Source: Crossaster papposus (taxonomy: Eukaryota; Echinodermata; Asteroidea; Velatida; Solasteridae). Taken from it: a stretch of DNA of 64,000 bases. The DNA is taken from positions 83,548 through 147,547 of the forward strand of contig JBAIAA010000530.1 of the NCBI GenBank assembly GCA_037893245.1. Direction: 5' to 3'. This document shows, piece by piece, positions 1 to 64,000 of the stretch. The notes under the pieces are model-generated. The model saw only the letters and a program-made list of their open reading frames with translations. It did no database searches and was not told the origin of the DNA. The translations under genes were made by a program, and so were the position numbers. Each line of letters starts with the position of its first letter. Within the stretch, counting starts at the first letter, position 1.

Positions 1-121
1 GATATGGTCACCCTATGACCAATTTGAGACTTTTATAAATTTTTCAGCATGCTAATTTGGTATTTCTTTGAATTGAGATTGCAAGGAAAGGTCACAAGAT
101 ATGTACGTCACCATAACGTCA
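1..121 (-). promoter_or_regulatory. Candidate transposase promoter for the off-window unit to the left
   Basis: Read on the minus strand, it contains a consensus TATA box (TATAAAAG, 37 to 30) and two CRE-like half-sites, TGACGTA (110-104) and TGACGTT (121-115), placed 11 bp apart, which is about one helical turn. It points out of the window, so the gene it would serve is to the left. This supports the array continuing leftward. Confidence 0.5.
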
Positions 122-409
122 GTCAAGGCCTGTGTCCTTATGCCACTTGGAAAGGCTGTTGTATCCTTGGGGAAATTACCCCAGATTGTTTCTGTGTTGC
201 CAGGGTCACATTACAAGTGGGGAACACTTGGTCATTAATCTTTCAAATAATTACATCCTAAGATAGCAACTTCTGAAATTGTAATGGTAAAACATCAAAA
301 TGGCCCCCCAATTCCCCGTAAAAATTATCCCTGTGTAATGGTTGAGTAAGCAAAGAACCTTTTTACACTTAGATTTTTATTTTATTTAAGAAATTGGTGT
401 TATTTTTTT

Positions 410-414
<5 letters not shown>
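122..414. other. Non-coding AT-rich stretch
   Basis: I see no supported gene here. A 70-codon plus-strand ORF (49-261) runs antisense across the candidate promoter, has no recognisable domain and is not called. The same stretch follows the promoter in every unit. Confidence 0.6.
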
Positions 415-441
<27 letters not shown>

Positions 442-666
442 GGGGGGAGGAGGGTGGGGGTGGGGTGGTGGTTATTGGGTGTCCATTAATGAAGACATGA
501 GTGCTAAGTATAAAACCCTTAATTACTATGAACAATTTATCCCCTTACATATATTTGTTTGTTGATTTAAACTCCCCACCTACCAACCAAACCCCCCCCC
601 CCCCCCTCCCCACACACACCAACAAAGTAAGTGCAATATTAAACCATGTATATAAAAAAAAAAAAA
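415..666. repeat. Low-complexity inverted block: T27, G-rich tract, C15, A13
   Basis: A run of 27 T (415-441) leads directly into a G-rich tract (442-470) with G runs of 6, 3, 5 and 4 and short loops, a clear G-quadruplex motif on the plus strand. About 120 bp later come a run of 15 C (592-606), T, four C, then a CA stretch (611-618), and finally 13 A (654-666). In order this is T, G ... C, A, so the halves can pair as a long imperfect hairpin with a loop of roughly 100 bases. It recurs at the same offset in all 13 units. The T run is 27 in the three other units I counted (2, 9, 13), and the C run is 16 only in unit 13. Confidence 0.75.
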
Positions 667-962
667 TACTAAATAAAACATACAACCCACGTACTTGCCC
701 ACGTACATTTCGAAAAAATGAACTTTAAGATGTTTTTTATATTTTTAAAAACATTGTAGAATCTGTTTGCACTAGCATGTATAGGAGAGTCTGTGCTGTT
801 AAGACAGTGCAAAATGCTATAGGCTGGCCTTGAACATTTAACCCTGTAGATGGCCATTGGATTAATTTTTTCATTTTTGTTTTGAACATTTGAGTTCTTT
901 GATTCGTTCTGGACCTTTTAGTATTATTTTTGTTTCAAATAATTATAAATCATTGTATTTAA
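667..962. other. AT-rich spacer before the nested array
   Basis: No gene is supported. CCCACGTAC occurs twice in direct orientation (686-694, 698-706). TTAAGACAGTGCA (799-811) matches the inner end of the nested element's right inverted repeat (TTAGGACAGTGCA) at 12 of 13 positions and may be a decayed fragment or chance. Confidence 0.5.
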
Positions 963-2418
963 AGGGTGCACTGTCCTAATTGAAGGGAGAATTTCTCCGC
1001 GGTCTCATTAGCATGAAATGTGCCCCCACAATTTCTTTTGAAAAAGGAGTCCGTTTGGTAAAAGAAATGGTGGGATTGTGTAAATTTAGCATGGGATCAA
1101 CTCCCTGGTTTCTGAGCTTCAATCTGAAGGCAGACTTGACAAAATTACGGTTGAAAAATGGGTCCTAATTGCCCCTAAACGTGGAGGGATGCCATTTGTA
1201 AAATGGCTGCGTGCAGGCTGGGAAAGTATCACTTTTCGGGAGGTGAGTTTCTTTTGGTGTGAATATTAAAAAATGTAATTGGCTAACCCACCCAAAATTG
1301 AAAAGAAATGGAAAGATAAAGGCCAAGACAATAATCTGATTGTTGTTTGATAAACCCCAGTGATGTTGGTTTGCATGAAACTTGGCCCTAAACTTTGTTT
1401 ATTTTACACTGTTTTCAATGGGACTTGAATTAGGACAGTGCACCCTAAAGGGTGCACTGTCCTAATTGAAGGGAGAATTTCTCCGCGGTCTCATTAGCAT
1501 GAAATGTGCCCCCACAATTTCTTTTGAAAAAGGAGTCCGTTTGGTAAAAGAAATGGTGGGATTGTGTAAATTTAGCATGGGATCAACTCCCTGGTTTCTG
1601 AGCTTCAATCTGAAGGCAGACTTGACAAAATTACGGTTGAAAAATGGGTCCTAATTGCCCCTAAACGTGGAGGGATGCCATTTGTAAAATGGCTGCGTGC
1701 AGGCTGGGAAAGTATCACTTTTCGGGAGGTGAGTTTCTTTTGGTGTGAATATTAAAAAATGTAATTGGCTAACCCACCCAAAATTGAAAAGAAATGGAAA
1801 GATAAAGGCCAAGACAATAATCTGATTGTTGTTTGATAAACCCCAGTGATGTTGGTTTGCATGAAACTTGGCCCTAAACTTTGTTTATTTTACACTGTTT
1901 TCAATGGGACTTGAATTAGGACAGTGCACCCTAAAGGGTGCACTGTCCTAATTGAAGGGAGAATTTCTCCGCGGTCTCATTAGCATGAAATGTGCCCCCA
2001 CAATTTCTTTTGAAAAAGGAGTCCGTTTGGTAAAAGAAATGGTGGGATTGTGTAAATTTAGCATGGGATCAACTCCCTGGTTTCTGAGCTTCAATCTGAA
2101 GGCAGACTTGACAAAATTACGGTTGAAAAATGGGTCCTAATTGCCCCTAAACGTGGAGGGATGCCATTTGTAAAATGGCTGCGTGCAGGCTGGGAAAGTA
2201 TCACTTTTCGGGAGGTGAGTTTCTTTTGGTGTGAATATTAAAAAATGTAATTGGCTAACCCACCCAAAATTGAAAAGAAATGGAAAGATAAAGGCCAAGA
2301 CAATAATCTGATTGTTGTTTGATAAACCCCAGTGATGTTGGTTTGCATGAAACTTGGCCCTAAACTTTGTTTATTTTACACTGTTTTCAATGGGACTTGA
2401 ATTAGGACAGTGCACCCT
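963..2418. mobile_element. Nested TIR element array, 3 copies, unit 1
   Basis: Three tandem copies (963-1446, 1449-1932, 1935-2418) of a 484-bp element, separated by AA, giving a 486-bp period. Each begins AGGGTGCACTGTCCTAATT and ends with its exact reverse complement, so the terminal inverted repeats are 19 bp and perfect. After a G/C mismatch, AAG also pairs. No long ORF is present, so the element looks like a non-autonomous DNA transposon (MITE-like) later amplified in tandem. An internal hairpin (GCCATTT, 3-base loop, AAATGGC) lies at 1191-1207. The flanks, GTATTTAA (955-962) and ATATTTCA (2419-2426), agree at 6 of 8 positions and may be a decayed target duplication. The ends do not resemble the junction inverted repeat of the host unit, so it is probably another family. 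Confidence 0.85.
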
Positions 2419-2584
2419 ATATTTCAAAATGGCCGCCTCCTTGGAGTCATGCGGGCGGGGATTTAAAAATGGTTTGTGTTGTTTACGCTTACTGGCTTTA
2501 GTCGTAGAAGACAAGAACAAGTTTCAGGAGACAATTGTCTGGATTCTGACACATCAGAGATATTTTATTACTGGAAACAGGTAA
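2419..2584 (+). other. Exon-like segment with YY1/GC-box motifs and a 51-codon ORF ending at a splice donor
   Basis: Immediately right of the nested array, AAAATGGCCGCC (2426-2437) resembles a YY1 site overlapping an ATG at 2429. GGGCGGGG (GC box) follows near 2453-2460. The ORF 2429-2584 encodes 51 residues starting MAASLESCGRGFK, with no family I recognise. It ends where AACAG is followed by GTAAAA (boundary after 2580), a good 5' splice-site match. This is the only GC-richer, exon-like part of the backbone outside the transposase. It could be the first exon of a plus-strand gene, a captured host exon, or chance. Copies are at 7412, 12395, 16892, 23333, 29288, 34271, 39254, 43751, 48248, 52745, 57242 and 61254. 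Confidence 0.35.
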
Positions 2585-2647
2585 AAAACACAGTTTAAAT
2601 CACATAATAATTATGTACAGTCGTTTTGTAAAATTTTAAACATTTTT

Positions 2648-2681
2648 TTTATTTTTTCTTTATTTTTTTTATTTTTTTATT
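2648..2681 (-). terminator. Poly(A) signal cluster downstream of the transposase
   Basis: Four AATAAA hexamers on the minus strand (TTTATT on plus at 2648, 2659, 2668 and 2676) lie 178-211 nt beyond the TAA stop at 2859-2861. The surrounding tract is almost pure A/T, so some hexamers arise from low complexity, but the position suits 3'-end formation. The cluster recurs at the same distance from every transposase stop. Confidence 0.5.
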
Positions 2682-2753
2682 TTTTTTTACCATTTAAACA
2701 AAGATTCTCGGACACATGCAATTCAAGTTGATAAACAGACTATGAAACCGGCC

Positions 2754-2821
2754 AACCCTAGCTACATTAACCCTAACCGAACGGAGGGTAACCAACCCTA
2801 ATGGAACGTAACCCTAAACCC
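2754..2821. repeat. Cluster of telomere-like AACCCTA motifs
   Basis: AACCCTA occurs at 2754, 2769, 2794 and 2810, with one inverted GGGTAACC (2786-2793), in 68 bp. The motifs are spaced 15-25 bp apart, so this is not a true telomere tract. GTAACCCTA at 2808 also matches the transposon-end candidate at the unit junction (TAGGGTTAC, 4968-4976), so the cluster may be subterminal transposase-binding repeats. It lies 38 bp beyond the transposase stop in every unit. Confidence 0.5.
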
Positions 2822-2858
2822 AAACTGGATAAAACCAACCAGATTATTACAAACAAAA

Positions 2859-4925
2859 TTACAGGAACATTTTACAGTAATTGTGTTCGTTGTAGATATT
2901 TTGCTCTGGTAATTTGTCCTTTGACTGGAATTCATTGTTTGGTCTGGGATTTAATTGTCCTGGTTTATACATGGCCTGTGCAGTATAGTACGTATGGTAT
3001 CTTTCACCACGACATTGTGCTCGTCTTTTCCTATATTTTGGAGACTTTGAACGTTTCTTATGATATTTTTGTTTTTTGTCCATTTCAGCAAGAGCACTGG
3101 CAGCAGGCGAGTTGCTGGTTATGGGACACCCAGCTGCTTGGCATTTCTTGATGATTGAGTTGGCGTGCCCGTTGTTAACGAGGTGAATGGAACTCCGATC
3201 TCTTGCTGCAGCGTTCTTTGAAAAAGTTAGTGAACCTTTAGGGTTGGTCATTCCAAAGGCATGATTCACAGATTCAGTCTTTTGTGTACTCATGCCATAC
3301 TTTGTTTTTTCTAATGCATCTTCTCCAATTCGCTTGTCCAAAAGTTTCTTTAAAAGCTGCTCATCCTTCGTGGATAAACTTAGTTTTTCTCTAGTACTGC
3401 GTGACATATATGGAAATCCATAATTACCGTTACAAATTTGGGATTTGTTTTTGCATAGACTGTGATCCCCCATATAACATTTTGGGATGGCAGTTGAAGC
3501 ATTAGCTGCCATCTTTTTCATTCTGTACATTTTCCCATCACATTTTTGGAGAATTGCGATGGCCTCGGCCTGTGTTCTGTGACTTACATCATCAGCAAAA
3601 CGGTCTTGCAGTTGTTTTTTTAGTCTAGCACTCTTGCAGGGAAACATATTTGAGCTGAAATTTGCCCGACTAATGGCAGCGCATAGTGATCTATTCAAAT
3701 GAGAAGGATCTAGTTGTTGCACTGTTTCAGAACCAGTTCTTGTCCTCATTTGTGTGTTCAAGCCTGCTGCCAGACATCCATCTGCATCAGTGGTGACACT
3801 GTTGACAAGGAGGGGCTCTTTGCAATGCAAAAGTTTTTTAGCGCATTGTAGTCCTCCCTGTTTCTCGTTTCCCATGTTGAAGTGAGAAGGACGTGTCGCT
3901 GTGCATCCTGTGTGGTTAGGGCATTTAGGTGTTTTTTCTCCTTTGGCACGTCTCATTTCTCTACTTTTACACAGTTTGTTTTCTTGATTGTACATGATGA
4001 CATACTTTGAAGATGTCACATTTTCACACACAGTGTCTCTGGTTTGTGTGGCAGGTACAAAGAGACTTTTTTTCCTAGAGTTTCTGAGTGGGTTGTTGTA
4101 TTGTCTGTCCATCTCAACAGCAATTGGACTCTCTCTTTGAAATCCCTGCATCTCGTGAATATCTTTTACAATTGTTCTCTTTGCAGCCATGTCTTCTTCA
4201 TTTTCTTGAGATATTATTTTACCACATTTGTGTGCAATTTTTTGCAGTCCACTACTCGAAGGAACAGCCGTGTCCATAGCTGCTAAGAGCCTCCTTGCAC
4301 CTGCAGCTGCGATGCCAGTGTTGTAGAGTCCCACCTGAAATGCCATGTTGGGAGTAGCAGTCCGTCGTCCAGGTCCATTTTGAGGTATTTCGGTATAAAG
4401 TCTTTGTCTCTGTGTTGTAAATCCACACTTTTGGCAGTACATTGCTTCAGATACTGCTAAACCTCTGCATTCCTCTGCCTCTGCCAGTAGTTTAGGATGG
4501 CCATCACACTCGGGATGCGATTTTTGATGGTCAAGTACCGCCTTTGCTCCAAGTTCCACCGCCGACTCAATGTCCACGAAACGATATCCTCCTTGGTGAT
4601 TCGTTCCACTCGGGGGTGGAAAGTGCCCTATTTTGAGATTGGATTTTCCACCATTGGGCTGGAGCCTGTCAACTAGAGTAATTTCTCCAGCTTTTGGTCG
4701 AAGTAGCATTACATTTCTGCACTTGGTCCCTGCTGTTGGAAGTGTCTGGCTGAAAAACCCTCGTTCGTCTTTCGGAACAGCCAGTTCGAGTTGCTCATAT
4801 GTTGGTCTTACATACTTGGGCAGTTCCATGTCTTCAGCTGCACGCTGCATCTTGGGAGACTGCTCGTGTTTTGGTTTGAACCAAGTTTTTTTCATTTTAA
4901 AAATTCCTCTTCTGTCTCGACCCAT
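2859..4925 (-). CDS. Mutator-like (MULE) DDE transposase, intact, unit 1
   Basis: A cut-and-paste DNA transposase expected to bind transposon ends in the nucleus and catalyse excision and integration. The first ATG after an in-frame TGA (4965-4967) is at 4925. Its ACAATGG context (A at -3, G at +4) is a strong Kozak site and gives 688 residues. A longer reading from 4937 would need a TTG start. The N terminus is basic. A Cys/His cluster (C140, H143, C153, C164, C167) is followed by the RNase-H-like core. The probable triad is D273 in VEMDRQYN, D380 in VTTDADG and E551 in TQKTESVNHA. Zinc-knuckle-like groups lie at C335/H338/C341 and C483/H488/C491/C498. A Lys/Arg-rich tail (617-639) looks like a nuclear signal. 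Conserved blocks such as ENVT, NKLC, CPNHTGC and DPSHLN fit the metazoan Mutator-like transposase family. The family call is from remembered signatures, not a search. No intron or break is visible. Confidence 0.9.
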   Translation of the reverse strand: MGRDRRGIFKMKKTWFKPKHEQSPKMQRAAEDMELPKYVRPTYEQLELAVPKDERGFFSQTLPTAGTKCRNVMLLRPKAGEITLVDRLQPNGGKSNLKIGHFPPPSGTNHQGGYRFVDIESAVELGAKAVLDHQKSHPECDGHPKLLAEAEECRGLAVSEAMYCQKCGFTTQRQRLYTEIPQNGPGRRTATPNMAFQVGLYNTGIAAAGARRLLAAMDTAVPSSSGLQKIAHKCGKIISQENEEDMAAKRTIVKDIHEMQGFQRESPIAVEMDRQYNNPLRNSRKKSLFVPATQTRDTVCENVTSSKYVIMYNQENKLCKSREMRRAKGEKTPKCPNHTGCTATRPSHFNMGNEKQGGLQCAKKLLHCKEPLLVNSVTTDADGCLAAGLNTQMRTRTGSETVQQLDPSHLNRSLCAAISRANFSSNMFPCKSARLKKQLQDRFADDVSHRTQAEAIAILQKCDGKMYRMKKMAANASTAIPKCYMGDHSLCKNKSQICNGNYGFPYMSRSTREKLSLSTKDEQLLKKLLDKRIGEDALEKTKYGMSTQKTESVNHAFGMTNPKGSLTFSKNAAARDRSSIHLVNNGHANSIIKKCQAAGCPITSNSPAASALAEMDKKQKYHKKRSKSPKYRKRRAQCRGERYHTYYTAQAMYKPGQLNPRPNNEFQSKDKLPEQNIYNEHNYCKMFL

Positions 4926-4964
4926 TGTACACAACAAAAGAATTTCAGCTTTGCTCGATGGTTT

Positions 4965-5001
4965 TCATAGGGTTACTTGAAATGATATGGTCACCCTATG
5001 A
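4965..5001. repeat. Unit junction with 12-bp inverted repeat (possible abutting transposon ends)
   Basis: TCATAGGGTTAC (4965-4976) and GTCACCCTATGA (4990-5001) are inverted repeats with one mismatch, separated by 13 bp (TTGAAATGATATG). If a transposon begins at 4990 and ends at the matching TAC of the next junction, this is where two head-to-tail copies meet. Beyond the 12 bp, CCA and GAG blocks align only with gaps. The same structure recurs at 9948, 14931, 19428, 25869, 31824, 36807, 41790, 46287, 50784, 55281, 59778 and 63790. GGTCA/TGACC arms (4989-5003) also form a small palindrome. It could instead be an operator-like site in the transposase leader. Confidence 0.5.
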
Positions 5002-5104
5002 CCAATTTGAGACTTTTATAAATTTTTCAGCATGCTAATTTGGTATTTCTTTGAATTGAGATTGCAAGGAAAGGTCACAAGATATGTACGTCACCATAAC
5101 GTCA
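4984..5104 (-). promoter_or_regulatory. Candidate promoter of the unit-1 transposase, located in unit 2
   Basis: TATAAAAG lies at 5020-5013 on the minus strand. Initiation 25-30 bp downstream would fall near 4985-4992, leaving a leader of about 60-67 nt before the ATG at 4925. CRE-like half-sites lie at 5093-5087 and 5104-5098. All these sites sit beyond the inverted-repeat junction, in the next unit, so the tandem arrangement itself supplies them. Initiation has not been measured and the sites are read by eye. Confidence 0.55.
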
Positions 5105-5392
5105 GTCAAGGCCTGTGTCCTTATGCCACTTGGAAAGGCTGTTGTATCCTTGGGGAAATTACCCCAGATTGTTTCTGTGTTGCCAGGGTCACATTACAAG
5201 TGGGGAACACTTGGTCATTAATCTTTCAAATAATTACATCCTAAGATAGCAACTTCTGAAATTGTAATGGTAAAACATCAAAATGGCCCCCCAATTCCCC
5301 GTAAAAATTATCCCTGTGTAATGGTTGAGTAAGCAAAGAACCTTTTTACACTTAGATTTTTATTTTATTTAAGAAATTGGTGTTATTTTTTT

Positions 5393-5424
<32 letters not shown>

Positions 5425-5945
5425 GGGGGGAGGAGGGTGGGGGTGGGGTGGTGGTTATTGGGTGTCCATTAATGAAGACATGAGTGCTAAGTATAAAACC
5501 CTTAATTACTATGAACAATTTATCCCCTTACATATATTTGTTTGTTGATTTAAACTCCCCACCTACCAACCAAACCCCCCCCCCCCCCCTCCCCACACAC
5601 ACCAACAAAGTAAGTGCAATATTAAACCATGTATATAAAAAAAAAAAAATACTAAATAAAACATACAACCCACGTACTTGCCCACGTACATTTCGAAAAA
5701 ATGAACTTTAAGATGTTTTTTATATTTTTAAAAACATTGTAGAATCTGTTTGCACTAGCATGTATAGGAGAGTCTGTGCTGTTAAGACAGTGCAAAATGC
5801 TATAGGCTGGCCTTGAACATTTAACCCTGTAGATGGCCATTGGATTAATTTTTTCATTTTTGTTTTGAACATTTGAGTTCTTTGATTCGTTCTGGACCTT
5901 TTAGTATTATTTTTGTTTCAAATAATTATAAATCATTGTATTTAA

Positions 5946-7401
5946 AGGGTGCACTGTCCTAATTGAAGGGAGAATTTCTCCGCGGTCTCATTAGCATGAA
6001 ATGTGCCCCCACAATTTCTTTTGAAAAAGGAGTCCGTTTGGTAAAAGAAATGGTGGGATTGTGTAAATTTAGCATGGGATCAACTCCCTGGTTTCTGAGC
6101 TTCAATCTGAAGGCAGACTTGACAAAATTACGGTTGAAAAATGGGTCCTAATTGCCCCTAAACGTGGAGGGATGCCATTTGTAAAATGGCTGCGTGCAGG
6201 CTGGGAAAGTATCACTTTTCGGGAGGTGAGTTTCTTTTGGTGTGAATATTAAAAAATGTAATTGGCTAACCCACCCAAAATTGAAAAGAAATGGAAAGAT
6301 AAAGGCCAAGACAATAATCTGATTGTTGTTTGATAAACCCCAGTGATGTTGGTTTGCATGAAACTTGGCCCTAAACTTTGTTTATTTTACACTGTTTTCA
6401 ATGGGACTTGAATTAGGACAGTGCACCCTAAAGGGTGCACTGTCCTAATTGAAGGGAGAATTTCTCCGCGGTCTCATTAGCATGAAATGTGCCCCCACAA
6501 TTTCTTTTGAAAAAGGAGTCCGTTTGGTAAAAGAAATGGTGGGATTGTGTAAATTTAGCATGGGATCAACTCCCTGGTTTCTGAGCTTCAATCTGAAGGC
6601 AGACTTGACAAAATTACGGTTGAAAAATGGGTCCTAATTGCCCCTAAACGTGGAGGGATGCCATTTGTAAAATGGCTGCGTGCAGGCTGGGAAAGTATCA
6701 CTTTTCGGGAGGTGAGTTTCTTTTGGTGTGAATATTAAAAAATGTAATTGGCTAACCCACCCAAAATTGAAAAGAAATGGAAAGATAAAGGCCAAGACAA
6801 TAATCTGATTGTTGTTTGATAAACCCCAGTGATGTTGGTTTGCATGAAACTTGGCCCTAAACTTTGTTTATTTTACACTGTTTTCAATGGGACTTGAATT
6901 AGGACAGTGCACCCTAAAGGGTGCACTGTCCTAATTGAAGGGAGAATTTCTCCGCGGTCTCATTAGCATGAAATGTGCCCCCACAATTTCTTTTGAAAAA
7001 GGAGTCCGTTTGGTAAAAGAAATGGTGGGATTGTGTAAATTTAGCATGGGATCAACTCCCTGGTTTCTGAGCTTCAATCTGAAGGCAGACTTGACAAAAT
7101 TACGGTTGAAAAATGGGTCCTAATTGCCCCTAAACGTGGAGGGATGCCATTTGTAAAATGGCTGCGTGCAGGCTGGGAAAGTATCACTTTTCGGGAGGTG
7201 AGTTTCTTTTGGTGTGAATATTAAAAAATGTAATTGGCTAACCCACCCAAAATTGAAAAGAAATGGAAAGATAAAGGCCAAGACAATAATCTGATTGTTG
7301 TTTGATAAACCCCAGTGATGTTGGTTTGCATGAAACTTGGCCCTAAACTTTGTTTATTTTACACTGTTTTCAATGGGACTTGAATTAGGACAGTGCACCC
7401 T
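5946..7401. mobile_element. Nested TIR element array, 3 copies, unit 2
   Basis: Copies at 5946-6429, 6432-6915 and 6918-7401. The flanks are the same as in unit 1, so all units descend from one insertion site. Confidence 0.85.
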
Positions 7402-10407: not shown

Positions 10408-10928
10408 GGGGGGAGGAGGGTGGGGGTGGGGTGGTGGTTATTGGGTGTCCATTAATGAAGACATGAGTGCTAAGTATAAAACCCTTAATTACTATGAACA
10501 ATTTATCCCCTTACATATATTTGTTTGTTGATTTAAACTCCCCACCTACCAACCAAACCCCCCCCCCCCCCCTCCCCACACACACCAACAAAGTAAGTGC
10601 AATATTAAACCATGTATATAAAAAAAAAAAAATACTAAATAAAACATACAACCCACGTACTTGCCCACGTACATTTCGAAAAAATGAACTTTAAGATGTT
10701 TTTTATATTTTTAAAAACATTGTAGAATCTGTTTGCACTAGCATGTATAGGAGAGTCTGTGCTGTTAAGACAGTGCAAAATGCTATAGGCTGGCCTTGAA
10801 CATTTAACCCTGTAGATGGCCATTGGATTAATTTTTTCATTTTTGTTTTGAACATTTGAGTTCTTTGATTCGTTCTGGACCTTTTAGTATTATTTTTGTT
10901 TCAAATAATTATAAATCATTGTATTTAA

Positions 10929-15390: not shown

Positions 15391-15911
15391 GGGGGGAGGA
15401 GGGTGGGGGTGGGGTGGTGGTTATTGGGTGTCCATTAATGAAGACATGAGTGCTAAGTATAAAACCCTTAATTACTATGAACAATTTATCCCCTTACATA
15501 TATTTGTTTGTTGATTTAAACTCCCCACCTACCAACCAAACCCCCCCCCCCCCCCTCCCCACACACACCAACAAAGTAAGTGCAATATTAAACCATGTAT
15601 ATAAAAAAAAAAAAATACTAAATAAAACATACAACCCACGTACTTGCCCACGTACATTTCGAAAAAATGAACTTTAAGATGTTTTTTATATTTTTAAAAA
15701 CATTGTAGAATCTGTTTGCACTAGCATGTATAGGAGAGTCTGTGCTGTTAAGACAGTGCAAAATGCTATAGGCTGGCCTTGAACATTTAACCCTGTAGAT
15801 GGCCATTGGATTAATTTTTTCATTTTTGTTTTGAACATTTGAGTTCTTTGATTCGTTCTGGACCTTTTAGTATTATTTTTGTTTCAAATAATTATAAATC
15901 ATTGTATTTAA

Positions 15912-51243: not shown

Positions 51244-51764
51244 GGGGGGAGGAGGGTGGGGGTGGGGTGGTGGTTATTGGGTGTCCATTAATGAAGACAT
51301 GAGTGCTAAGTATAAAACCCTTAATTACTATGAACAATTTATCCCCTTACATATATTTGTTTGTTGATTTAAACTCCCCACCTACCAACCAAACCCCCCC
51401 CCCCCCCCTCCCCACACACACCAACAAAGTAAGTGCAATATTAAACCATGTATATAAAAAAAAAAAAATACTAAATAAAACATACAACCCACGTACTTGC
51501 CCACGTACATTTCGAAAAAATGAACTTTAAGATGTTTTTTATATTTTTAAAAACATTGTAGAATCTGTTTGCACTAGCATGTATAGGAGAGTCTGTGCTG
51601 TTAAGACAGTGCAAAATGCTATAGGCTGGCCTTGAACATTTAACCCTGTAGATGGCCATTGGATTAATTTTTTCATTTTTGTTTTGAACATTTGAGTTCT
51701 TTGATTCGTTCTGGACCTTTTAGTATTATTTTTGTTTCAAATAATTATAAATCATTGTATTTAA

Positions 51765-53174: not shown

Positions 53175-55241
53175 TTACAGGAACATTTTACAGTAATTGT
53201 GTTCGTTGTAGATATTTTGCTCTGGTAATTTGTCCTTTGACTGGAATTCATTGTTTGGTCTGGGATTTAATTGTCCTGGTTTATACATGGCCTGTGCAGT
53301 ATAGTACGTATGGTATCTTTCACCACGACATTGTGCTCGTCTTTTCCTATATTTTGGAGACTTTGAACGTTTCTTATGATATTTTTGTTTTTTGTCCATT
53401 TCAGCAAGAGCACTGGCAGCAGGCGAGTTGCTGGTTATGGGACACCCAGCTGCTTGGCATTTCTTGATGATTGAGTTGGCGTGCCCGTTGTTAACGAGGT
53501 GAATGGAACTCCGATCTCTTGCTGCAGCGTTCTTTGAAAAAGTTAGTGAACCTTTAGGGTTGGTCATTCCAAAGGCATGATTCACAGATTCAGTCTTTTG
53601 TGTACTCATGCCATACTTTGTTTTTTCTAATGCATCTTCTCCAATTCGCTTGTCCAAAAGTTTCTTTAAAAGCTGCTCATCCTTCGTGGATAAACTTAGT
53701 TTTTCTCTAGTACTGCGTGACATATATGGAAATCCATAATTACCGTTACAAATTTGGGATTTGTTTTTGCATAGACTGTGATCCCCCATATAACATTTTG
53801 GGATGGCAGTTGAAGCATTAGCTGCCATCTTTTTCATTCTGTACATTTTCCCATCACATTTTTGGAGAATTGCGATGGCCTCGGCCTGTGTTCTGTGACT
53901 TACATCATCAGCAAAACGGTCTTGCAGTTGTTTTTTTAGTCTAGCACTCTTGCAGGGAAACATATTTGAGCTGAAATTTGCCCGACTAATGGCAGCGCAT
54001 AGTGATCTATTCAAATGAGAAGGATCTAGTTGTTGCACTGTTTCAGAACCAGTTCTTGTCCTCATTTGTGTGTTCAAGCCTGCTGCCAGACATCCATCTG
54101 CATCAGTGGTGACACTGTTGACAAGGAGGGGCTCTTTGCAATGCAAAAGTTTTTTAGCGCATTGTAGTCCTCCCTGTTTCTCGTTTCCCATGTTGAAGTG
54201 AGAAGGACGTGTCGCTGTGCATCCTGTGTGGTTAGGGCATTTAGGTGTTTTTTCTCCTTTGGCACGTCTCATTTCTCTACTTTTACACAGTTTGTTTTCT
54301 TGATTGTACATGATGACATACTTTGAAGATGTCACATTTTCACACACAGTGTCTCTGGTTTGTGTGGCAGGTACAAAGAGACTTTTTTTCCTAGAGTTTC
54401 TGAGTGGGTTGTTGTATTGTCTGTCCATCTCAACAGCAATTGGACTCTCTCTTTGAAATCCCTGCATCTCGTGAATATCTTTTACAATTGTTCTCTTTGC
54501 AGCCATGTCTTCTTCATTTTCTTGAGATATTATTTTACCACATTTGTGTGCAATTTTTTGCAGTCCACTACTCGAAGGAACAGCCGTGTCCATAGCTGCT
54601 AAGAGCCTCCTTGCACCTGCAGCTGCGATGCCAGTGTTGTAGAGTCCCACCTGAAATGCCATGTTGGGAGTAGCAGTCCGTCGTCCAGGTCCATTTTGAG
54701 GTATTTCGGTATAAAGTCTTTGTCTCTGTGTTGTAAATCCACACTTTTGGCAGTACATTGCTTCAGATACTGCTAAACCTCTGCATTCCTCTGCCTCTGC
54801 CAGTAGTTTAGGATGGCCATCACACTCGGGATGCGATTTTTGATGGTCAAGTACCGCCTTTGCTCCAAGTTCCACCGCCGACTCAATGTCCACGAAACGA
54901 TATCCTCCTTGGTGATTCGTTCCACTCGGGGGTGGAAAGTGCCCTATTTTGAGATTGGATTTTCCACCATTGGGCTGGAGCCTGTCAACTAGAGTAATTT
55001 CTCCAGCTTTTGGTCGAAGTAGCATTACATTTCTGCACTTGGTCCCTGCTGTTGGAAGTGTCTGGCTGAAAAACCCTCGTTCGTCTTTCGGAACAGCCAG
55101 TTCGAGTTGCTCATATGTTGGTCTTACATACTTGGGCAGTTCCATGTCTTCAGCTGCACGCTGCATCTTGGGAGACTGCTCGTGTTTTGGTTTGAACCAA
55201 GTTTTTTTCATTTTAAAAATTCCTCTTCTGTCTCGACCCAT
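53175..55241 (-). CDS. Mutator-like DDE transposase, intact, unit 11
   Basis: Identical 688-residue protein. The putative promoter is at 55300-55420 in unit 12. Confidence 0.9.
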   Translation of the reverse strand: MGRDRRGIFKMKKTWFKPKHEQSPKMQRAAEDMELPKYVRPTYEQLELAVPKDERGFFSQTLPTAGTKCRNVMLLRPKAGEITLVDRLQPNGGKSNLKIGHFPPPSGTNHQGGYRFVDIESAVELGAKAVLDHQKSHPECDGHPKLLAEAEECRGLAVSEAMYCQKCGFTTQRQRLYTEIPQNGPGRRTATPNMAFQVGLYNTGIAAAGARRLLAAMDTAVPSSSGLQKIAHKCGKIISQENEEDMAAKRTIVKDIHEMQGFQRESPIAVEMDRQYNNPLRNSRKKSLFVPATQTRDTVCENVTSSKYVIMYNQENKLCKSREMRRAKGEKTPKCPNHTGCTATRPSHFNMGNEKQGGLQCAKKLLHCKEPLLVNSVTTDADGCLAAGLNTQMRTRTGSETVQQLDPSHLNRSLCAAISRANFSSNMFPCKSARLKKQLQDRFADDVSHRTQAEAIAILQKCDGKMYRMKKMAANASTAIPKCYMGDHSLCKNKSQICNGNYGFPYMSRSTREKLSLSTKDEQLLKKLLDKRIGEDALEKTKYGMSTQKTESVNHAFGMTNPKGSLTFSKNAAARDRSSIHLVNNGHANSIIKKCQAAGCPITSNSPAASALAEMDKKQKYHKKRSKSPKYRKRRAQCRGERYHTYYTAQAMYKPGQLNPRPNNEFQSKDKLPEQNIYNEHNYCKMFL

Positions 55242-55299
55242 TGTACACAACAAAAGAATTTCAGCTTTGCTCGATGGTTTTCATAGGGTTACTTGAAAT

Positions 55300-55420
55300 G
55301 ATATGGTCACCCTATGACCAATTTGAGACTTTTATAAATTTTTCAGCATGCTAATTTGGTATTTCTTTGAATTGAGATTGCAAGGAAAGGTCACAAGATA
55401 TGTACGTCACCATAACGTCA
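55300..55420 (-). promoter_or_regulatory. Candidate promoter of the unit-11 transposase, located in unit 12
   Basis: TATA box at 55336-55329, CRE-like half-sites at 55403-55420. Confidence 0.55.
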
Positions 55421-55708
55421 GTCAAGGCCTGTGTCCTTATGCCACTTGGAAAGGCTGTTGTATCCTTGGGGAAATTACCCCAGATTGTTTCTGTGTTGCC
55501 AGGGTCACATTACAAGTGGGGAACACTTGGTCATTAATCTTTCAAATAATTACATCCTAAGATAGCAACTTCTGAAATTGTAATGGTAAAACATCAAAAT
55601 GGCCCCCCAATTCCCCGTAAAAATTATCCCTGTGTAATGGTTGAGTAAGCAAAGAACCTTTTTACACTTAGATTTTTATTTTATTTAAGAAATTGGTGTT
55701 ATTTTTTT

Positions 55709-55740
<32 letters not shown>

Positions 55741-56261
55741 GGGGGGAGGAGGGTGGGGGTGGGGTGGTGGTTATTGGGTGTCCATTAATGAAGACATGAG
55801 TGCTAAGTATAAAACCCTTAATTACTATGAACAATTTATCCCCTTACATATATTTGTTTGTTGATTTAAACTCCCCACCTACCAACCAAACCCCCCCCCC
55901 CCCCCTCCCCACACACACCAACAAAGTAAGTGCAATATTAAACCATGTATATAAAAAAAAAAAAATACTAAATAAAACATACAACCCACGTACTTGCCCA
56001 CGTACATTTCGAAAAAATGAACTTTAAGATGTTTTTTATATTTTTAAAAACATTGTAGAATCTGTTTGCACTAGCATGTATAGGAGAGTCTGTGCTGTTA
56101 AGACAGTGCAAAATGCTATAGGCTGGCCTTGAACATTTAACCCTGTAGATGGCCATTGGATTAATTTTTTCATTTTTGTTTTGAACATTTGAGTTCTTTG
56201 ATTCGTTCTGGACCTTTTAGTATTATTTTTGTTTCAAATAATTATAAATCATTGTATTTAA

Positions 56262-57231
56262 AGGGTGCACTGTCCTAATTGAAGGGAGAATTTCTCCGCG
56301 GTCTCATTAGCATGAAATGTGCCCCCACAATTTCTTTTGAAAAAGGAGTCCGTTTGGTAAAAGAAATGGTGGGATTGTGTAAATTTAGCATGGGATCAAC
56401 TCCCTGGTTTCTGAGCTTCAATCTGAAGGCAGACTTGACAAAATTACGGTTGAAAAATGGGTCCTAATTGCCCCTAAACGTGGAGGGATGCCATTTGTAA
56501 AATGGCTGCGTGCAGGCTGGGAAAGTATCACTTTTCGGGAGGTGAGTTTCTTTTGGTGTGAATATTAAAAAATGTAATTGGCTAACCCACCCAAAATTGA
56601 AAAGAAATGGAAAGATAAAGGCCAAGACAATAATCTGATTGTTGTTTGATAAACCCCAGTGATGTTGGTTTGCATGAAACTTGGCCCTAAACTTTGTTTA
56701 TTTTACACTGTTTTCAATGGGACTTGAATTAGGACAGTGCACCCTAAAGGGTGCACTGTCCTAATTGAAGGGAGAATTTCTCCGCGGTCTCATTAGCATG
56801 AAATGTGCCCCCACAATTTCTTTTGAAAAAGGAGTCCGTTTGGTAAAAGAAATGGTGGGATTGTGTAAATTTAGCATGGGATCAACTCCCTGGTTTCTGA
56901 GCTTCAATCTGAAGGCAGACTTGACAAAATTACGGTTGAAAAATGGGTCCTAATTGCCCCTAAACGTGGAGGGATGCCATTTGTAAAATGGCTGCGTGCA
57001 GGCTGGGAAAGTATCACTTTTCGGGAGGTGAGTTTCTTTTGGTGTGAATATTAAAAAATGTAATTGGCTAACCCACCCAAAATTGAAAAGAAATGGAAAG
57101 ATAAAGGCCAAGACAATAATCTGATTGTTGTTTGATAAACCCCAGTGATGTTGGTTTGCATGAAACTTGGCCCTAAACTTTGTTTATTTTACACTGTTTT
57201 CAATGGGACTTGAATTAGGACAGTGCACCCT
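56262..57231. mobile_element. Nested TIR element array, 2 copies, unit 12
   Basis: Copies start at 56262 and 56748. Confidence 0.85.
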
Positions 57232-57671
57232 ATATTTCAAAATGGCCGCCTCCTTGGAGTCATGCGGGCGGGGATTTAAAAATGGTTTGTGTTGTTTACG
57301 CTTACTGGCTTTAGTCGTAGAAGACAAGAACAAGTTTCAGGAGACAATTGTCTGGATTCTGACACATCAGAGATATTTTATTACTGGAAACAGGTAAAAA
57401 ACACAGTTTAAATCACATAATAATTATGTACAGTCGTTTTGTAAAATTTTAAACATTTTTTTTATTTTTTCTTTATTTTTTTTATTTTTTTATTTTTTTT
57501 TACCATTTAAACAAAGATTCTCGGACACATGCAATTCAAGTTGATAAACAGACTATGAAACCGGCCAACCCTAGCTACATTAACCCTAACCGAACGGAGG
57601 GTAACCAACCCTAATGGAACGTAACCCTAAACCCAAACTGGATAAAACCAACCAGATTATTACAAACAAAA

Positions 57672-59738
57672 TTACAGGAACATTTTACAGTAATTGTGTT
57701 CGTTGTAGATATTTTGCTCTGGTAATTTGTCCTTTGACTGGAATTCATTGTTTGGTCTGGGATTTAATTGTCCTGGTTTATACATGGCCTGTGCAGTATA
57801 GTACGTATGGTATCTTTCACCACGACATTGTGCTCGTCTTTTCCTATATTTTGGAGACTTTGAACGTTTCTTATGATATTTTTGTTTTTTGTCCATTTCA
57901 GCAAGAGCACTGGCAGCAGGCGAGTTGCTGGTTATGGGACACCCAGCTGCTTGGCATTTCTTGATGATTGAGTTGGCGTGCCCGTTGTTAACGAGGTGAA
58001 TGGAACTCCGATCTCTTGCTGCAGCGTTCTTTGAAAAAGTTAGTGAACCTTTAGGGTTGGTCATTCCAAAGGCATGATTCACAGATTCAGTCTTTTGTGT
58101 ACTCATGCCATACTTTGTTTTTTCTAATGCATCTTCTCCAATTCGCTTGTCCAAAAGTTTCTTTAAAAGCTGCTCATCCTTCGTGGATAAACTTAGTTTT
58201 TCTCTAGTACTGCGTGACATATATGGAAATCCATAATTACCGTTACAAATTTGGGATTTGTTTTTGCATAGACTGTGATCCCCCATATAACATTTTGGGA
58301 TGGCAGTTGAAGCATTAGCTGCCATCTTTTTCATTCTGTACATTTTCCCATCACATTTTTGGAGAATTGCGATGGCCTCGGCCTGTGTTCTGTGACTTAC
58401 ATCATCAGCAAAACGGTCTTGCAGTTGTTTTTTTAGTCTAGCACTCTTGCAGGGAAACATATTTGAGCTGAAATTTGCCCGACTAATGGCAGCGCATAGT
58501 GATCTATTCAAATGAGAAGGATCTAGTTGTTGCACTGTTTCAGAACCAGTTCTTGTCCTCATTTGTGTGTTCAAGCCTGCTGCCAGACATCCATCTGCAT
58601 CAGTGGTGACACTGTTGACAAGGAGGGGCTCTTTGCAATGCAAAAGTTTTTTAGCGCATTGTAGTCCTCCCTGTTTCTCGTTTCCCATGTTGAAGTGAGA
58701 AGGACGTGTCGCTGTGCATCCTGTGTGGTTAGGGCATTTAGGTGTTTTTTCTCCTTTGGCACGTCTCATTTCTCTACTTTTACACAGTTTGTTTTCTTGA
58801 TTGTACATGATGACATACTTTGAAGATGTCACATTTTCACACACAGTGTCTCTGGTTTGTGTGGCAGGTACAAAGAGACTTTTTTTCCTAGAGTTTCTGA
58901 GTGGGTTGTTGTATTGTCTGTCCATCTCAACAGCAATTGGACTCTCTCTTTGAAATCCCTGCATCTCGTGAATATCTTTTACAATTGTTCTCTTTGCAGC
59001 CATGTCTTCTTCATTTTCTTGAGATATTATTTTACCACATTTGTGTGCAATTTTTTGCAGTCCACTACTCGAAGGAACAGCCGTGTCCATAGCTGCTAAG
59101 AGCCTCCTTGCACCTGCAGCTGCGATGCCAGTGTTGTAGAGTCCCACCTGAAATGCCATGTTGGGAGTAGCAGTCCGTCGTCCAGGTCCATTTTGAGGTA
59201 TTTCGGTATAAAGTCTTTGTCTCTGTGTTGTAAATCCACACTTTTGGCAGTACATTGCTTCAGATACTGCTAAACCTCTGCATTCCTCTGCCTCTGCCAG
59301 TAGTTTAGGATGGCCATCACACTCGGGATGCGATTTTTGATGGTCAAGTACCGCCTTTGCTCCAAGTTCCACCGCCGACTCAATGTCCACGAAACGATAT
59401 CCTCCTTGGTGATTCGTTCCACTCGGGGGTGGAAAGTGCCCTATTTTGAGATTGGATTTTCCACCATTGGGCTGGAGCCTGTCAACTAGAGTAATTTCTC
59501 CAGCTTTTGGTCGAAGTAGCATTACATTTCTGCACTTGGTCCCTGCTGTTGGAAGTGTCTGGCTGAAAAACCCTCGTTCGTCTTTCGGAACAGCCAGTTC
59601 GAGTTGCTCATATGTTGGTCTTACATACTTGGGCAGTTCCATGTCTTCAGCTGCACGCTGCATCTTGGGAGACTGCTCGTGTTTTGGTTTGAACCAAGTT
59701 TTTTTCATTTTAAAAATTCCTCTTCTGTCTCGACCCAT
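57672..59738 (-). CDS. Mutator-like DDE transposase, intact, unit 12
   Basis: Identical 688-residue protein. Its putative promoter (59797-59917) lies in unit 13. The unit-13 substitution at 59934 falls just outside the TATA and CRE-like sites. Confidence 0.9.
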   Translation of the reverse strand: MGRDRRGIFKMKKTWFKPKHEQSPKMQRAAEDMELPKYVRPTYEQLELAVPKDERGFFSQTLPTAGTKCRNVMLLRPKAGEITLVDRLQPNGGKSNLKIGHFPPPSGTNHQGGYRFVDIESAVELGAKAVLDHQKSHPECDGHPKLLAEAEECRGLAVSEAMYCQKCGFTTQRQRLYTEIPQNGPGRRTATPNMAFQVGLYNTGIAAAGARRLLAAMDTAVPSSSGLQKIAHKCGKIISQENEEDMAAKRTIVKDIHEMQGFQRESPIAVEMDRQYNNPLRNSRKKSLFVPATQTRDTVCENVTSSKYVIMYNQENKLCKSREMRRAKGEKTPKCPNHTGCTATRPSHFNMGNEKQGGLQCAKKLLHCKEPLLVNSVTTDADGCLAAGLNTQMRTRTGSETVQQLDPSHLNRSLCAAISRANFSSNMFPCKSARLKKQLQDRFADDVSHRTQAEAIAILQKCDGKMYRMKKMAANASTAIPKCYMGDHSLCKNKSQICNGNYGFPYMSRSTREKLSLSTKDEQLLKKLLDKRIGEDALEKTKYGMSTQKTESVNHAFGMTNPKGSLTFSKNAAARDRSSIHLVNNGHANSIIKKCQAAGCPITSNSPAASALAEMDKKQKYHKKRSKSPKYRKRRAQCRGERYHTYYTAQAMYKPGQLNPRPNNEFQSKDKLPEQNIYNEHNYCKMFL

Positions 59739-59796
59739 TGTACACAACAAAAGAATTTCAGCTTTGCTCGATGGTTTTCATAGGGTTACTTGAAAT

Positions 59797-59917
59797 GATA
59801 TGGTCACCCTATGACCAATTTGAGACTTTTATAAATTTTTCAGCATGCTAATTTGGTATTTCTTTGAATTGAGATTGCAAGGAAAGGTCACAAGATATGT
59901 ACGTCACCATAACGTCA
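59797..59917 (-). promoter_or_regulatory. Candidate promoter of the unit-12 transposase, located in unit 13
   Basis: TATA box at 59833-59826, CRE-like half-sites at 59900-59917. The private C at 59934 is 17 bp beyond the distal half-site. Confidence 0.55.
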
Positions 59918-60205
59918 GTCAAGGCCTGTGTCCCTATGCCACTTGGAAAGGCTGTTGTATCCTTGGGGAAATTACCCCAGATTGTTTCTGTGTTGCCAGG
60001 GTCACATTACAAGTGGGGAACACTTGGTCATTAATCTTTCAAATAATTACATCCTAAGATAGCAACTTCTGAAATTGTAATGGTAAAACATCAAAATGGC
60101 CCCCCAATTCCCCGTAAAAATTATCCCTGTGTAATGGTTGAGTAAGCAAAGAACCTTTTTACACTTAGATTTTTATTTTATTTAAGAAATTGGTGTTATT
60201 TTTTT

Positions 60206-60237
<32 letters not shown>

Positions 60238-60759
60238 GGGGGGAGGAGGGTGGGGGTGGGGTGGTGGTTATTGGGTGTCCATTAATGAAGACATGAGTGC
60301 TAAGTATAAAACCCTTAATTACTATGAACAATTTATCCCCTTACATATATTTGTTTGTTGATTTAAACTCCCCACCTACCAACCAAACCCCCCCCCCCCC
60401 CCCTCCCCACACACACCAACAAAGTAAGTGCAATATTAAACCATGTATATAAAAAAAAAAAAATACTAAATAAAACATACAACCCACGTACTTGCCCACG
60501 TACATTTCGAAAAAATGAACTTTAAGATGTTTTTTATATTTTTAAAAACATTGTAGAATCTGTTTGCACTAGCATGTATAGGAGAGTCTGTGCTGTTAAG
60601 ACAGTGCAAAATGCTATAGGCTGGCCTTGAACATTTAACCCTGTAGATGGCCATTGGATTAATTTTTTCATTTTTGTTTTGAACATTTGAGTTCTTTGAT
60701 TCGTTCTGGACCTTTTAGTATTATTTTTGTTTCAAATAATTATAAATCATTGTATTTAA

Positions 60760-61243
60760 AGGGTGCACTGTCCTAATTGAAGGGAGAATTTCTCCGCGGT
60801 CTCATTAGCATGAAATGTGCCCCCACAATTTCTTTTGAAAAAGGAGTCCGTTTGGTAAAAGAAATGGTGGGATTGTGTAAATTTAGCATGGGATCAACTC
60901 CCTGGTTTCTGAGCTTCAATCTGAAGGCAGACTTGACAAAATTACGGTTGAAAAATGGGTCCTAATTGCCCCTAAACGTGGAGGGATGCCATTTGTAAAA
61001 TGGCTGCGTGCAGGCTGGGAAAGTATCACTTTTCGGGAGGTGAGTTTCTTTTGGTGTGAATATTAAAAAATGTAATTGGCTAACCCACCCAAAATTGAAA
61101 AGAAATGGAAAGATAAAGGCCAAGACAATAATCTGATTGTTGTTTGATAAACCCCAGTGATGTTGGTTTGCATGAAACTTGGCCCTAAACTTTGTTTATT
61201 TTACACTGTTTTCAATGGGACTTGAATTAGGACAGTGCACCCT
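60760..61243. mobile_element. Nested TIR element, single copy, unit 13
   Basis: A lone 484-bp copy with both 19-bp ends intact. It shows what the original single insertion, or a fully contracted array, looks like. Confidence 0.87.
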
Positions 61244-61683
61244 ATATTTCAAAATGGCCGCCTCCTTGGAGTCATGCGGGCGGGGATTTAAAAATGGTTT
61301 GTGTTGTTTACGCTTACTGGCTTTAGTCGTAGAAGACAAGAACAAGTTTCAGGAGACAATTGTCTGGATTCTGACACATCAGAGATATTTTATTACTGGA
61401 AACAGGTAAAAAACACAGTTTAAATCACATAATAATTATGTACAGTCGTTTTGTAAAATTTTAAACATTTTTTTTATTTTTTCTTTATTTTTTTTATTTT
61501 TTTATTTTTTTTTACCATTTAAACAAAGATTCTCGGACACATGCAATTCAAGTTGATAAACAGACTATGAAACCGGCCAACCCTAGCTACATTAACCCTA
61601 ACCGAACGGAGGGTAACCAACCCTAATGGAACGTAACCCTAAACCCAAACTGGATAAAACCAACCAGATTATTACAAACAAAA

Positions 61684-63750
61684 TTACAGGAACATTTTAC
61701 AGTAATTGTGTTCGTTGTAGATATTTTGCTCTGGTAATTTGTCCTTTGACTGGAATTCATTGTTTGGTCTGGGATTTAATTGTCCTGGTTTATACATGGC
61801 CTGTGCAGTATAGTACGTATGGTATCTTTCACCACGACATTGTGCTCGTCTTTTCCTATATTTTGGAGACTTTGAACGTTTCTTATGATATTTTTGTTTT
61901 TTGTCCATTTCAGCAAGAGCACTGGCAGCAGGCGAGTTGCTGGTTATGGGACACCCAGCTGCTTGGCATTTCTTGATGATTGAGTTGGCGTGCCCGTTGT
62001 TAACGAGGTGAATGGAACTCCGATCTCTTGCTGCAGCGTTCTTTGAAAAAGTTAGTGAACCTTTAGGGTTGGTCATTCCAAAGGCATGATTCACAGATTC
62101 AGTCTTTTGTGTACTCATGCCATACTTTGTTTTTTCTAATGCATCTTCTCCAATTCGCTTGTCCAAAAGTTTCTTTAAAAGCTGCTCATCCTTCGTGGAT
62201 AAACTTAGTTTTTCTCTAGTACTGCGTGACATATATGGAAATCCATAATTACCGTTACAAATTTGGGATTTGTTTTTGCATAGACTGTGATCCCCCATAT
62301 AACATTTTGGGATGGCAGTTGAAGCATTAGCTGCCATCTTTTTCATTCTGTACATTTTCCCATCACATTTTTGGAGAATTGCGATGGCCTCGGCCTGTGT
62401 TCTGTGACTTACATCATCAGCAAAACGGTCTTGCAGTTGTTTTTTTAGTCTAGCACTCTTGCAGGGAAACATATTTGAGCTGAAATTTGCCCGACTAATG
62501 GCAGCGCATAGTGATCTATTCAAATGAGAAGGATCTAGTTGTTGCACTGTTTCAGAACCAGTTCTTGTCCTCATTTGTGTGTTCAAGCCTGCTGCCAGAC
62601 ATCCATCTGCATCAGTGGTGACACTGTTGACAAGGAGGGGCTCTTTGCAATGCAAAAGTTTTTTAGCGCATTGTAGTCCTCCCTGTTTCTCGTTTCCCAT
62701 GTTGAAGTGAGAAGGACGTGTCGCTGTGCATCCTGTGTGGTTAGGGCATTTAGGTGTTTTTTCTCCTTTGGCACGTCTCATTTCTCTACTTTTACACAGT
62801 TTGTTTTCTTGATTGTACATGATGACATACTTTGAAGATGTCACATTTTCACACACAGTGTCTCTGGTTTGTGTGGCAGGTACAAAGAGACTTTTTTTCC
62901 TAGAGTTTCTGAGTGGGTTGTTGTATTGTCTGTCCATCTCAACAGCAATTGGACTCTCTCTTTGAAATCCCTGCATCTCGTGAATATCTTTTACAATTGT
63001 TCTCTTTGCAGCCATGTCTTCTTCATTTTCTTGAGATATTATTTTACCACATTTGTGTGCAATTTTTTGCAGTCCACTACTCGAAGGAACAGCCGTGTCC
63101 ATAGCTGCTAAGAGCCTCCTTGCACCTGCAGCTGCGATGCCAGTGTTGTAGAGTCCCACCTGAAATGCCATGTTGGGAGTAGCAGTCCGTCGTCCAGGTC
63201 CATTTTGAGGTATTTCGGTATAAAGTCTTTGTCTCTGTGTTGTAAATCCACACTTTTGGCAGTACATTGCTTCAGATACTGCTAAACCTCTGCATTCCTC
63301 TGCCTCTGCCAGTAGTTTAGGATGGCCATCACACTCGGGATGCGATTTTTGATGGTCAAGTACCGCCTTTGCTCCAAGTTCCACCGCCGACTCAATGTCC
63401 ACGAAACGATATCCTCCTTGGTGATTCGTTCCACTCGGGGGTGGAAAGTGCCCTATTTTGAGATTGGATTTTCCACCATTGGGCTGGAGCCTGTCAACTA
63501 GAGTAATTTCTCCAGCTTTTGGTCGAAGTAGCATTACATTTCTGCACTTGGTCCCTGCTGTTGGAAGTGTCTGGCTGAAAAACCCTCGTTCGTCTTTCGG
63601 AACAGCCAGTTCGAGTTGCTCATATGTTGGTCTTACATACTTGGGCAGTTCCATGTCTTCAGCTGCACGCTGCATCTTGGGAGACTGCTCGTGTTTTGGT
63701 TTGAACCAAGTTTTTTTCATTTTAAAAATTCCTCTTCTGTCTCGACCCAT
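61684..63750 (-). CDS. Mutator-like DDE transposase, intact, unit 13
   Basis: Identical 688-residue protein even though unit 13 carries private changes elsewhere. Its putative promoter (63809-63929) is in the truncated unit 14. Confidence 0.9.
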   Translation of the reverse strand: MGRDRRGIFKMKKTWFKPKHEQSPKMQRAAEDMELPKYVRPTYEQLELAVPKDERGFFSQTLPTAGTKCRNVMLLRPKAGEITLVDRLQPNGGKSNLKIGHFPPPSGTNHQGGYRFVDIESAVELGAKAVLDHQKSHPECDGHPKLLAEAEECRGLAVSEAMYCQKCGFTTQRQRLYTEIPQNGPGRRTATPNMAFQVGLYNTGIAAAGARRLLAAMDTAVPSSSGLQKIAHKCGKIISQENEEDMAAKRTIVKDIHEMQGFQRESPIAVEMDRQYNNPLRNSRKKSLFVPATQTRDTVCENVTSSKYVIMYNQENKLCKSREMRRAKGEKTPKCPNHTGCTATRPSHFNMGNEKQGGLQCAKKLLHCKEPLLVNSVTTDADGCLAAGLNTQMRTRTGSETVQQLDPSHLNRSLCAAISRANFSSNMFPCKSARLKKQLQDRFADDVSHRTQAEAIAILQKCDGKMYRMKKMAANASTAIPKCYMGDHSLCKNKSQICNGNYGFPYMSRSTREKLSLSTKDEQLLKKLLDKRIGEDALEKTKYGMSTQKTESVNHAFGMTNPKGSLTFSKNAAARDRSSIHLVNNGHANSIIKKCQAAGCPITSNSPAASALAEMDKKQKYHKKRSKSPKYRKRRAQCRGERYHTYYTAQAMYKPGQLNPRPNNEFQSKDKLPEQNIYNEHNYCKMFL

Positions 63751-63808
63751 TGTACACAACAAAAGAATTTCAGCTTTGCTCGATGGTTTTCATAGGGTTA
63801 CTTGAAAT

Positions 63809-63929
63809 GATATGGTCACCCTATGACCAATTTGAGACTTTTATAAATTTTTCAGCATGCTAATTTGGTATTTCTTTGAATTGAGATTGCAAGGAAAGGT
63901 CACAAGATATGTACGTCACCATAACGTCA
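63809..63929 (-). promoter_or_regulatory. Candidate promoter of the unit-13 transposase, located in unit 14
   Basis: TATA box at 63845-63838, CRE-like half-sites at 63912-63929. Confidence 0.55.
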
Positions 63930-64000
63930 GTCAAGGCCTGTGTCCTTATGCCACTTGGAAAGGCTGTTGTATCCTTGGGGAAATTACCCCAGATTGTTTC
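63809..64000. repeat. Macrosatellite unit 14, cut by the window end
   Basis: The first 192 bases of a further unit, including the complete promoter segment for the unit-13 transposase. It has the usual T at the position where unit 13 has C (63946 versus 59934). Confidence 0.95.

Follow-up and report, generated by a model that had tools for sequence, protein, structure and literature searches.

A head-to-tail array of at least 64 kb in Crossaster papposus as a probable part of a KolobokP-like composite transposon multimer

Should a run of identical transposase genes, repeated head to tail over 64 kb of a sea star genome, be regarded as a transposon or as a satellite? The question is raised by positions 83,548 to 147,547 of contig JBAIAA010000530.1 of Crossaster papposus (assembly GCA_037893245.1), a stretch of 64,000 bp which is called here the window. 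A preliminary description of the window had put transposon and satellite as an exclusive choice. This choice falls away with the KolobokP elements, in which an internal region (INT) with a DDE transposase lies between direct repeats (LTDRs) of about 450 or 660 bp, and whose insertions are often multimers of the form (LTDR-INT)n-LTDR, with solo repeats occurring as well (PMC9587614). The window is probably part of a long multimer of such a KolobokP-like composite DNA transposon, KolobokP being compared by its published description. The array is real and striking in the given sequence, yet it is of an already described kind.

The window is composed of 13 complete units, all in one orientation and uninterrupted, as previously counted, together with 192 bp of a 14th (Table 1). 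It starts and stops within the array and neither flank is visible, so that the 64 kb given earlier stands as a minimum array length. The length of the units varies (4,012-6,441 bp, equal to 3525 + 486n, with 3526 in unit 13) because a constant portion of 3,525 bp (3,526 bp in unit 13) joins 1-6 copies of a 486-bp repeat. Each 486-mer is TAAA followed by 482 bp of the form GGG...CCC (484 bp when taken as AGGG..CCCT), and the ends of this LTDR are 19-bp perfect terminal inverted repeats (AGGGTGCACTGTCCTAATT; 22 bp at 95%). The LTDRs are direct repeats which flank an internal region of 3,529 bp and are present between all INTs, giving a monomer length of 4,493 bp; the left edge of INT (GCACCCTATATTTC) and its right edge (TGTATTTAAAGGGTGCAC) were found 13 times each. 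These 482-bp direct repeats with inverted ends of their own define the element, and they are the key anatomy which the preliminary description had overlooked.

The window contains 37 LTDR copies, 36 of them identical and one (at 27333) with 2 substitutions. Where two LTDRs meet they are joined by a constant 4-bp TAAA (24 of 24 junctions), while the entry of a run ends with TTTAAA and its exit begins with TATA in all 13 units. The end repeats are thus themselves tandem, at 1-6 per unit with a constant TAAA joint, and this is unusual and new with respect to the main text on KolobokP. Some further features of the LTDR were recorded. In the changed copy (27333-27818) both substitutions fall within 4 bases of the right inverted repeat; the pair may stem from chance or from repair that followed a failed excision. 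Every LTDR has an imperfect palindrome of about 50 bp (78%; repeat positions 66-115, or 1025-1074 in the first copy), and folding of the single-stranded LTDR gave a z of -6.0 against 100 shuffles, the inverted ends contributing.

The thirteen identical and uninterrupted transposases of 688 residues reported before were recovered in full: the open reading frames (ORFs) of at least 250 amino acids in the window are 13, all on the minus strand and of one identical DNA sequence, with 688 amino acids counted from the ATG. From stop to stop the longest frame extends over 701 codons, while none of 300 Markov shuffles of the body gave more than 220. The protein matches the Pfam family PF20700, "Mutator-like transposase", with 165.5 bits (E 2.2e-48; cut-off 26.5) over positions 1-357 of the 357 of the model. 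A motif scan gave the order D273, C319-C335-H338-C341, D380, D406-H409 (DPSH, 406-409), C483-H488-C491-C498 and E551. The D/D/E triad stated earlier is plausible as D273, D380 and E551 by motif order and the known family motifs, not by alignment or model, and their catalytic roles are presumed on these grounds; D380 was preferred over D382 by our choice. Structure prediction from the single sequence was unusable (mean pLDDT 38), and the one match by sequence in the PDB (E 0.8) was regarded as chance. Relatives were found neither in viral_contigs (whole protein, two sub-regions and the 19-bp inverted repeat as queries) nor in genome_contigs, phages, plasmids and PHROGs; these collections cover viruses, prokaryotes, phages and plasmids, and a single-protein search reaches close relatives only, so this absence means little. 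PF20700 gave no match in phage lambda and 14 control genomes, a result which does not demonstrate absence.

The assignment to a KolobokP-like element is based on the agreement of several measures with the published description (PMC9587614). The KolobokP LTDRs named there are of 473 and 480 bp, with inverted repeats of 11-18 bp and RR..YY ends; the LTDR of the window, at 482/484 bp, is likewise direct and near the class of about 450 bp, its ends AG..CT follow RR..YY, and its inverted repeat of 19 bp goes one base beyond the range. With an INT of 3,529 bp, the monomer of 4,493 bp is in line with autonomous KolobokP in oyster (4,022-4,748 bp), and the multimer form (LTDR-INT)n is the same. By motif scan only, the transposase has a CCHC finger after D1, a C/DxxH after D2 and a second finger before E, a motif order common to KolobokP, KolobokE, KolobokD and Kolobok5 (PMC9587614). 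The agreement is partial at the edges of INT, which starts with TATA but ends with TAAA, whereas in one KolobokP family it begins and finishes with TATA (PMC9587614). KolobokP is described from seven animal phyla and is especially rich in bivalves (PMC9587614; Kojima & Bao 2022). The Xenopus-type Kolobok (XKol/T2), which has a TTAA target duplication and a THAP domain (PMC6004289), was rejected as a candidate, with TTAA on the left but ATAT on the right and no THAP in Pfam up to E 1.

Several points weigh against this assignment. The main text of PMC9587614 has no account of LTDR-LTDR runs, the term occurring 0 times, and the single arrays given in that text have up to four INTs, as compared with at least 13 units and 1-6 LTDRs per unit, joined via the TAAA spacer, here. 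In most KolobokP families a His-Me finger nuclease is encoded downstream of the transposase and on the strand opposite to it (PMC9587614), and none was found in INT outside the transposase frame by pattern and Pfam in six frames. Among the Pfam matches up to E 10 in the six frames of 2418-2858 and 4926-5945 there was no nuclease family, and a loose His/Cys pattern had hits in 2 of the 12 frames, solely across stop codons; antisense of the transposase the search covered two ORFs only (2792-3151 and 4600-4980). The non-coding frames also gave non-nuclease matches below cut-offs, which were set aside (DUF6681, E 0.018; 7tm_1, 0.015; INSC_LBD, 0.24; Androgen_recep, 0.71). The nuclease is not strictly defining for KolobokP, because some families appear to be without one (PMC9587614). 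Further, Pfam names the transposase Mutator-like, the flanks of the runs agree better as a 10-bp duplication (8/10) than as a 4-bp one (3/4), and the array ends with the outer target duplications fall outside the window.

A part of these points leads to an alternative in which an unrelated miniature element of 482 bp was inserted into a truncated Mutator-like element (MULE) and the pair was amplified as a macrosatellite, neither part being mobile; we regard this as improbable. The Pfam name is on its side; the term "Mutator-like" of the preliminary description is the name of this Pfam family. MULE target duplications are of 8-11 bp (PMC6446971), and the 10-bp flanks of the runs (TGTATTTAAA/TATATTTCAA) match at 8 of 10 positions with a chance of 0.011 (10 bp, 3 registers) to 0.019 (8-11 bp, 3 registers). 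As a 4-bp duplication, TAAA before each LTDR and TATA after each run are equal at 3 of 4 positions, where KolobokP insertions have target duplications of 3-5 bp (PMC9587614). The body, moreover, lacks inverted repeats of its own in excess of chance. Besides the LTDR ends, no exact inverted repeats longer than 12 bp were found in the doubled unit with two-letter repeats excluded. Between the two non-coding ends of INT, with A/T, C and G runs masked, they were not above chance (score 11 against a mean of 10.2 in 100 shuffles), and a 13-bp stretch at 5782-5794 resembling the LTDR end had a score of 11 which was reached in 5 of 60 shuffles; imperfect A/T-rich inverted repeats do occur in INT. Against such a chimera, the abutted repeats are separated by 4 bp and not by 10, and the repeat and monomer lengths coincide with those of KolobokP. 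The motif layout, too, fits Kolobok better than Mutator, because a zinc finger is present between D2 and E which MuDR does not have (PMC9587614).

A partial assembly artefact, in which a shorter multimer was expanded or unlike units were smoothed to a consensus, is held to be just as improbable, and it would be compatible with the KolobokP-like reading. Homopolymer tracts usually vary, and here T27 and A13 keep a single length throughout the 13 units, as C15 does in 12 of them. Units 2-4 and units 7-9 have exactly the same sequence over 14,463 bp, and the array is known here as assembled sequence. What weighs on the other side is that the LTDR counts differ (1, 2, 3, 5 and 6) and that unit 13 and one LTDR of unit 6 have changes of their own, because a simple looped copy would repeat exactly. 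To the left of the LTDR run 12 of the 13 units share one sequence, and to the right, on the ORF side, all 13 do. Unit 13 (59797-63808) is the only one with a changed body, having a single LTDR, one substitution and one inserted C (C16 in place of C15); partial unit 14 again matches the common sequence across its 192 bp.

The probable KolobokP-like multimer also has to account for the intactness of every copy, which the preliminary description had emphasized and which is true of 13 of 13 ORFs. It counts as one observation, because the units are too alike for decay to have begun: the 64,000 bases contain four changes in total (three substitutions and one insertion). At the whole-window rate, 1.7 changes and 0.08 nonsense changes are expected in the 13 ORFs, with a probability of no change of 0.19; at the rate of the non-coding body the figures are 2.8, 0.14 and 0.06. 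With about 0.08-0.14 nonsense changes expected, no selection has to be invoked for the ORFs, and their intactness points instead to a young array. These figures could be flattered by consensus smoothing, given the uniform T27 and A13 and nearly uniform C15 tracts. A domesticated transposase gene whose tandem array is retained by selection for dosage or function can draw on 13 identical ORFs against 2 changes in the non-coding body (P 0.06 at that rate), but it is highly improbable in view of the P of 0.19 and the few nonsense changes expected, and of direct repeats which keep their intact inverted ends with 36 of 37 copies unchanged.

Table 1. Positions of the array units and of the element parts in the window
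Feature	Position	Strand	LTDR run	LTDR copies (n)	Transposase ORF	Remarks
Whole window	1..64000	.				(LTDR_k-INT)n; both array ends outside
Unit 1	start 1		960..2417 (+)	3	2859..4925 (-)	
Unit 2	start 4984		5943-7400	3	stop end 7842 (-)	
Unit 3	start 9967		10926-12383	3	stop end 12825 (-)	
Unit 4	start 14950		15909-16880	2	stop end 17322 (-)	
Unit 5	start 19447		20406-23321	6	stop end 23763 (-)	
Unit 6	start 25888		26847-29276	5	stop end 29718 (-)	
Unit 7	start 31843		32802-34259	3	stop end 34701 (-)	
Unit 8	start 36826		37785-39242	3	stop end 39684 (-)	
Unit 9	start 41809		42768-43739	2	stop end 44181 (-)	
Unit 10	start 46306		47265-48236	2	stop end 48678 (-)	
Unit 11	start 50803		51762-52733	2	stop end 53175 (-)	
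Unit 12	start 55300		56259-57230	2	stop end 57672 (-)	
Unit 13	59797..63808		60757-61242	1	stop end 61684 (-)	
Partial unit 14	start 63809					192 bp
INT	2418..5946	-				3,529 bp; starts TATA, ends TAAA; coordinates for units 1/2, present in every unit
Left terminal inverted repeat, first LTDR	963..981	+				AGGGTGCACTGTCCTAATT; partner 1428-1446
Abutted inverted-repeat joint between two LTDRs	1443..1452	.				CCC-TAAA-GGG; CCCTAAAGGGTGCAC; 24 occurrences

Outside the coding frame, every unit carries a small inverted repeat (CATAGGGT...ACCCTATG, at 4966-5000) just upstream of the transposase start, and several telomere-like CCCTA(A) motifs (2750-2825) directly beyond the transposase stop. The number of CCCTA and TAGGG in the non-coding body was within the range of shuffles (6 against a mean of 2.9 and a maximum of 8 in 300 shuffles). 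The observed/expected CpG over the window is 0.46, and no Rfam match up to E 1 was obtained in 54000-64000, which includes the whole of units 12 and 13.

For the origin of the array, one LTDR-INT-LTDR insertion may have been multiplied by unequal crossover between out-of-register direct LTDRs, or LTDR-INT circles may have reintegrated. Both models, unequal crossover and circle integration, have been proposed for KolobokP multimers (PMC9587614). Amplification of this locus by unequal exchange or by circle reintegration, with strong homogenisation, had been suggested before; with the homogenisation taken as recent, this suggestion fits, though it was framed without the LTDRs. Two routes could have formed the LTDR runs: an LTDR may have used the 4-bp target duplication of an adjacent one as its insertion site, or an LTDR circle carrying a 4-bp spacer may have been involved. 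Either would yield a constant TAAA joint, and the window does not distinguish them. Later unequal exchange would then have given the 1-6 LTDR copies per unit, in an array presumably so recent that every ORF is still intact without selection. Neighbouring units are alike in their LTDR counts (summed difference 10 against a permutation mean of 16.9, P 0.011; equal neighbours 6 against 3.1, P 0.035), and this likeness, along with the identity of units 2-4 and 7-9, is as expected from local unequal exchange, being modest evidence from 13 units only.

A bolder version of this mechanism, held to be rather unlikely, is that the LTDR runs are a chromosomal record of LTDR circles made by the transposase, each LTDR-TAAA-LTDR joint being the abutted inverted-repeat junction, with 4 bp derived from one flank, which an IS3-like copy-out-paste-in would predict. 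Excision of KolobokP LTDRs removes 1-5 flanking bases from one side, and abutted INTs without 3 or 4 bp are described (PMC9587614). The circles come into consideration because an LTDR joint which keeps 4 bp of one flank is the expected reciprocal of that excision product. The circles would recombine into LTDRs to give the runs, and LTDR-INT circles or crossovers would give the array, a homing nuclease being unnecessary.

Whole DNA transposons are seldom reported in long arrays, and the present one shows a transposon on its way to becoming a satellite with its coding capacity retained. If true, a KolobokP-like multimer of at least 13 units without a nuclease would suggest that such arrays can grow without the homing nuclease which has been proposed to drive them. 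Circular intermediates of a eukaryotic DDE transposon can be sought directly at the abutted inverted-repeat joints, and what most deserves to be followed is the nesting of the LTDR runs with their constant joints.

Among the known parallels, Bari1 is a Tc1/mariner element without long direct repeats, hobo is a hAT element and is not composite, and IS26 has its transposase gene in the end element, whereas that of the window lies in the internal region. Tetris with its 220-bp repeats is a further listed parallel (PMC4079207), and unequal crossing over between two flanking mobile elements is reported in kochia (PMC6808082). In the bacterial IS26 translocatable units direct end elements alternate with a carried unit, and a circle combining one end element with one unit was proposed (PMC9587614). 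For hobo, tandem DNA transposon copies as in the window were expanded to 16 (McGurk & Barbash 2018, cited in the review PMC12628747), and according to the same review transposon tandems can also arise when insertions occur repeatedly in a single target duplication. The h39 cluster of Bari1 in Drosophila melanogaster shares with the window the head-to-tail arrangement of whole DNA transposons, with about 80 copies in heterochromatin, each without its first two nucleotides, and an origin resembling rolling-circle replication has been proposed for it; a 2022 review was aware of no example comparable to this cluster (PMC8834629).

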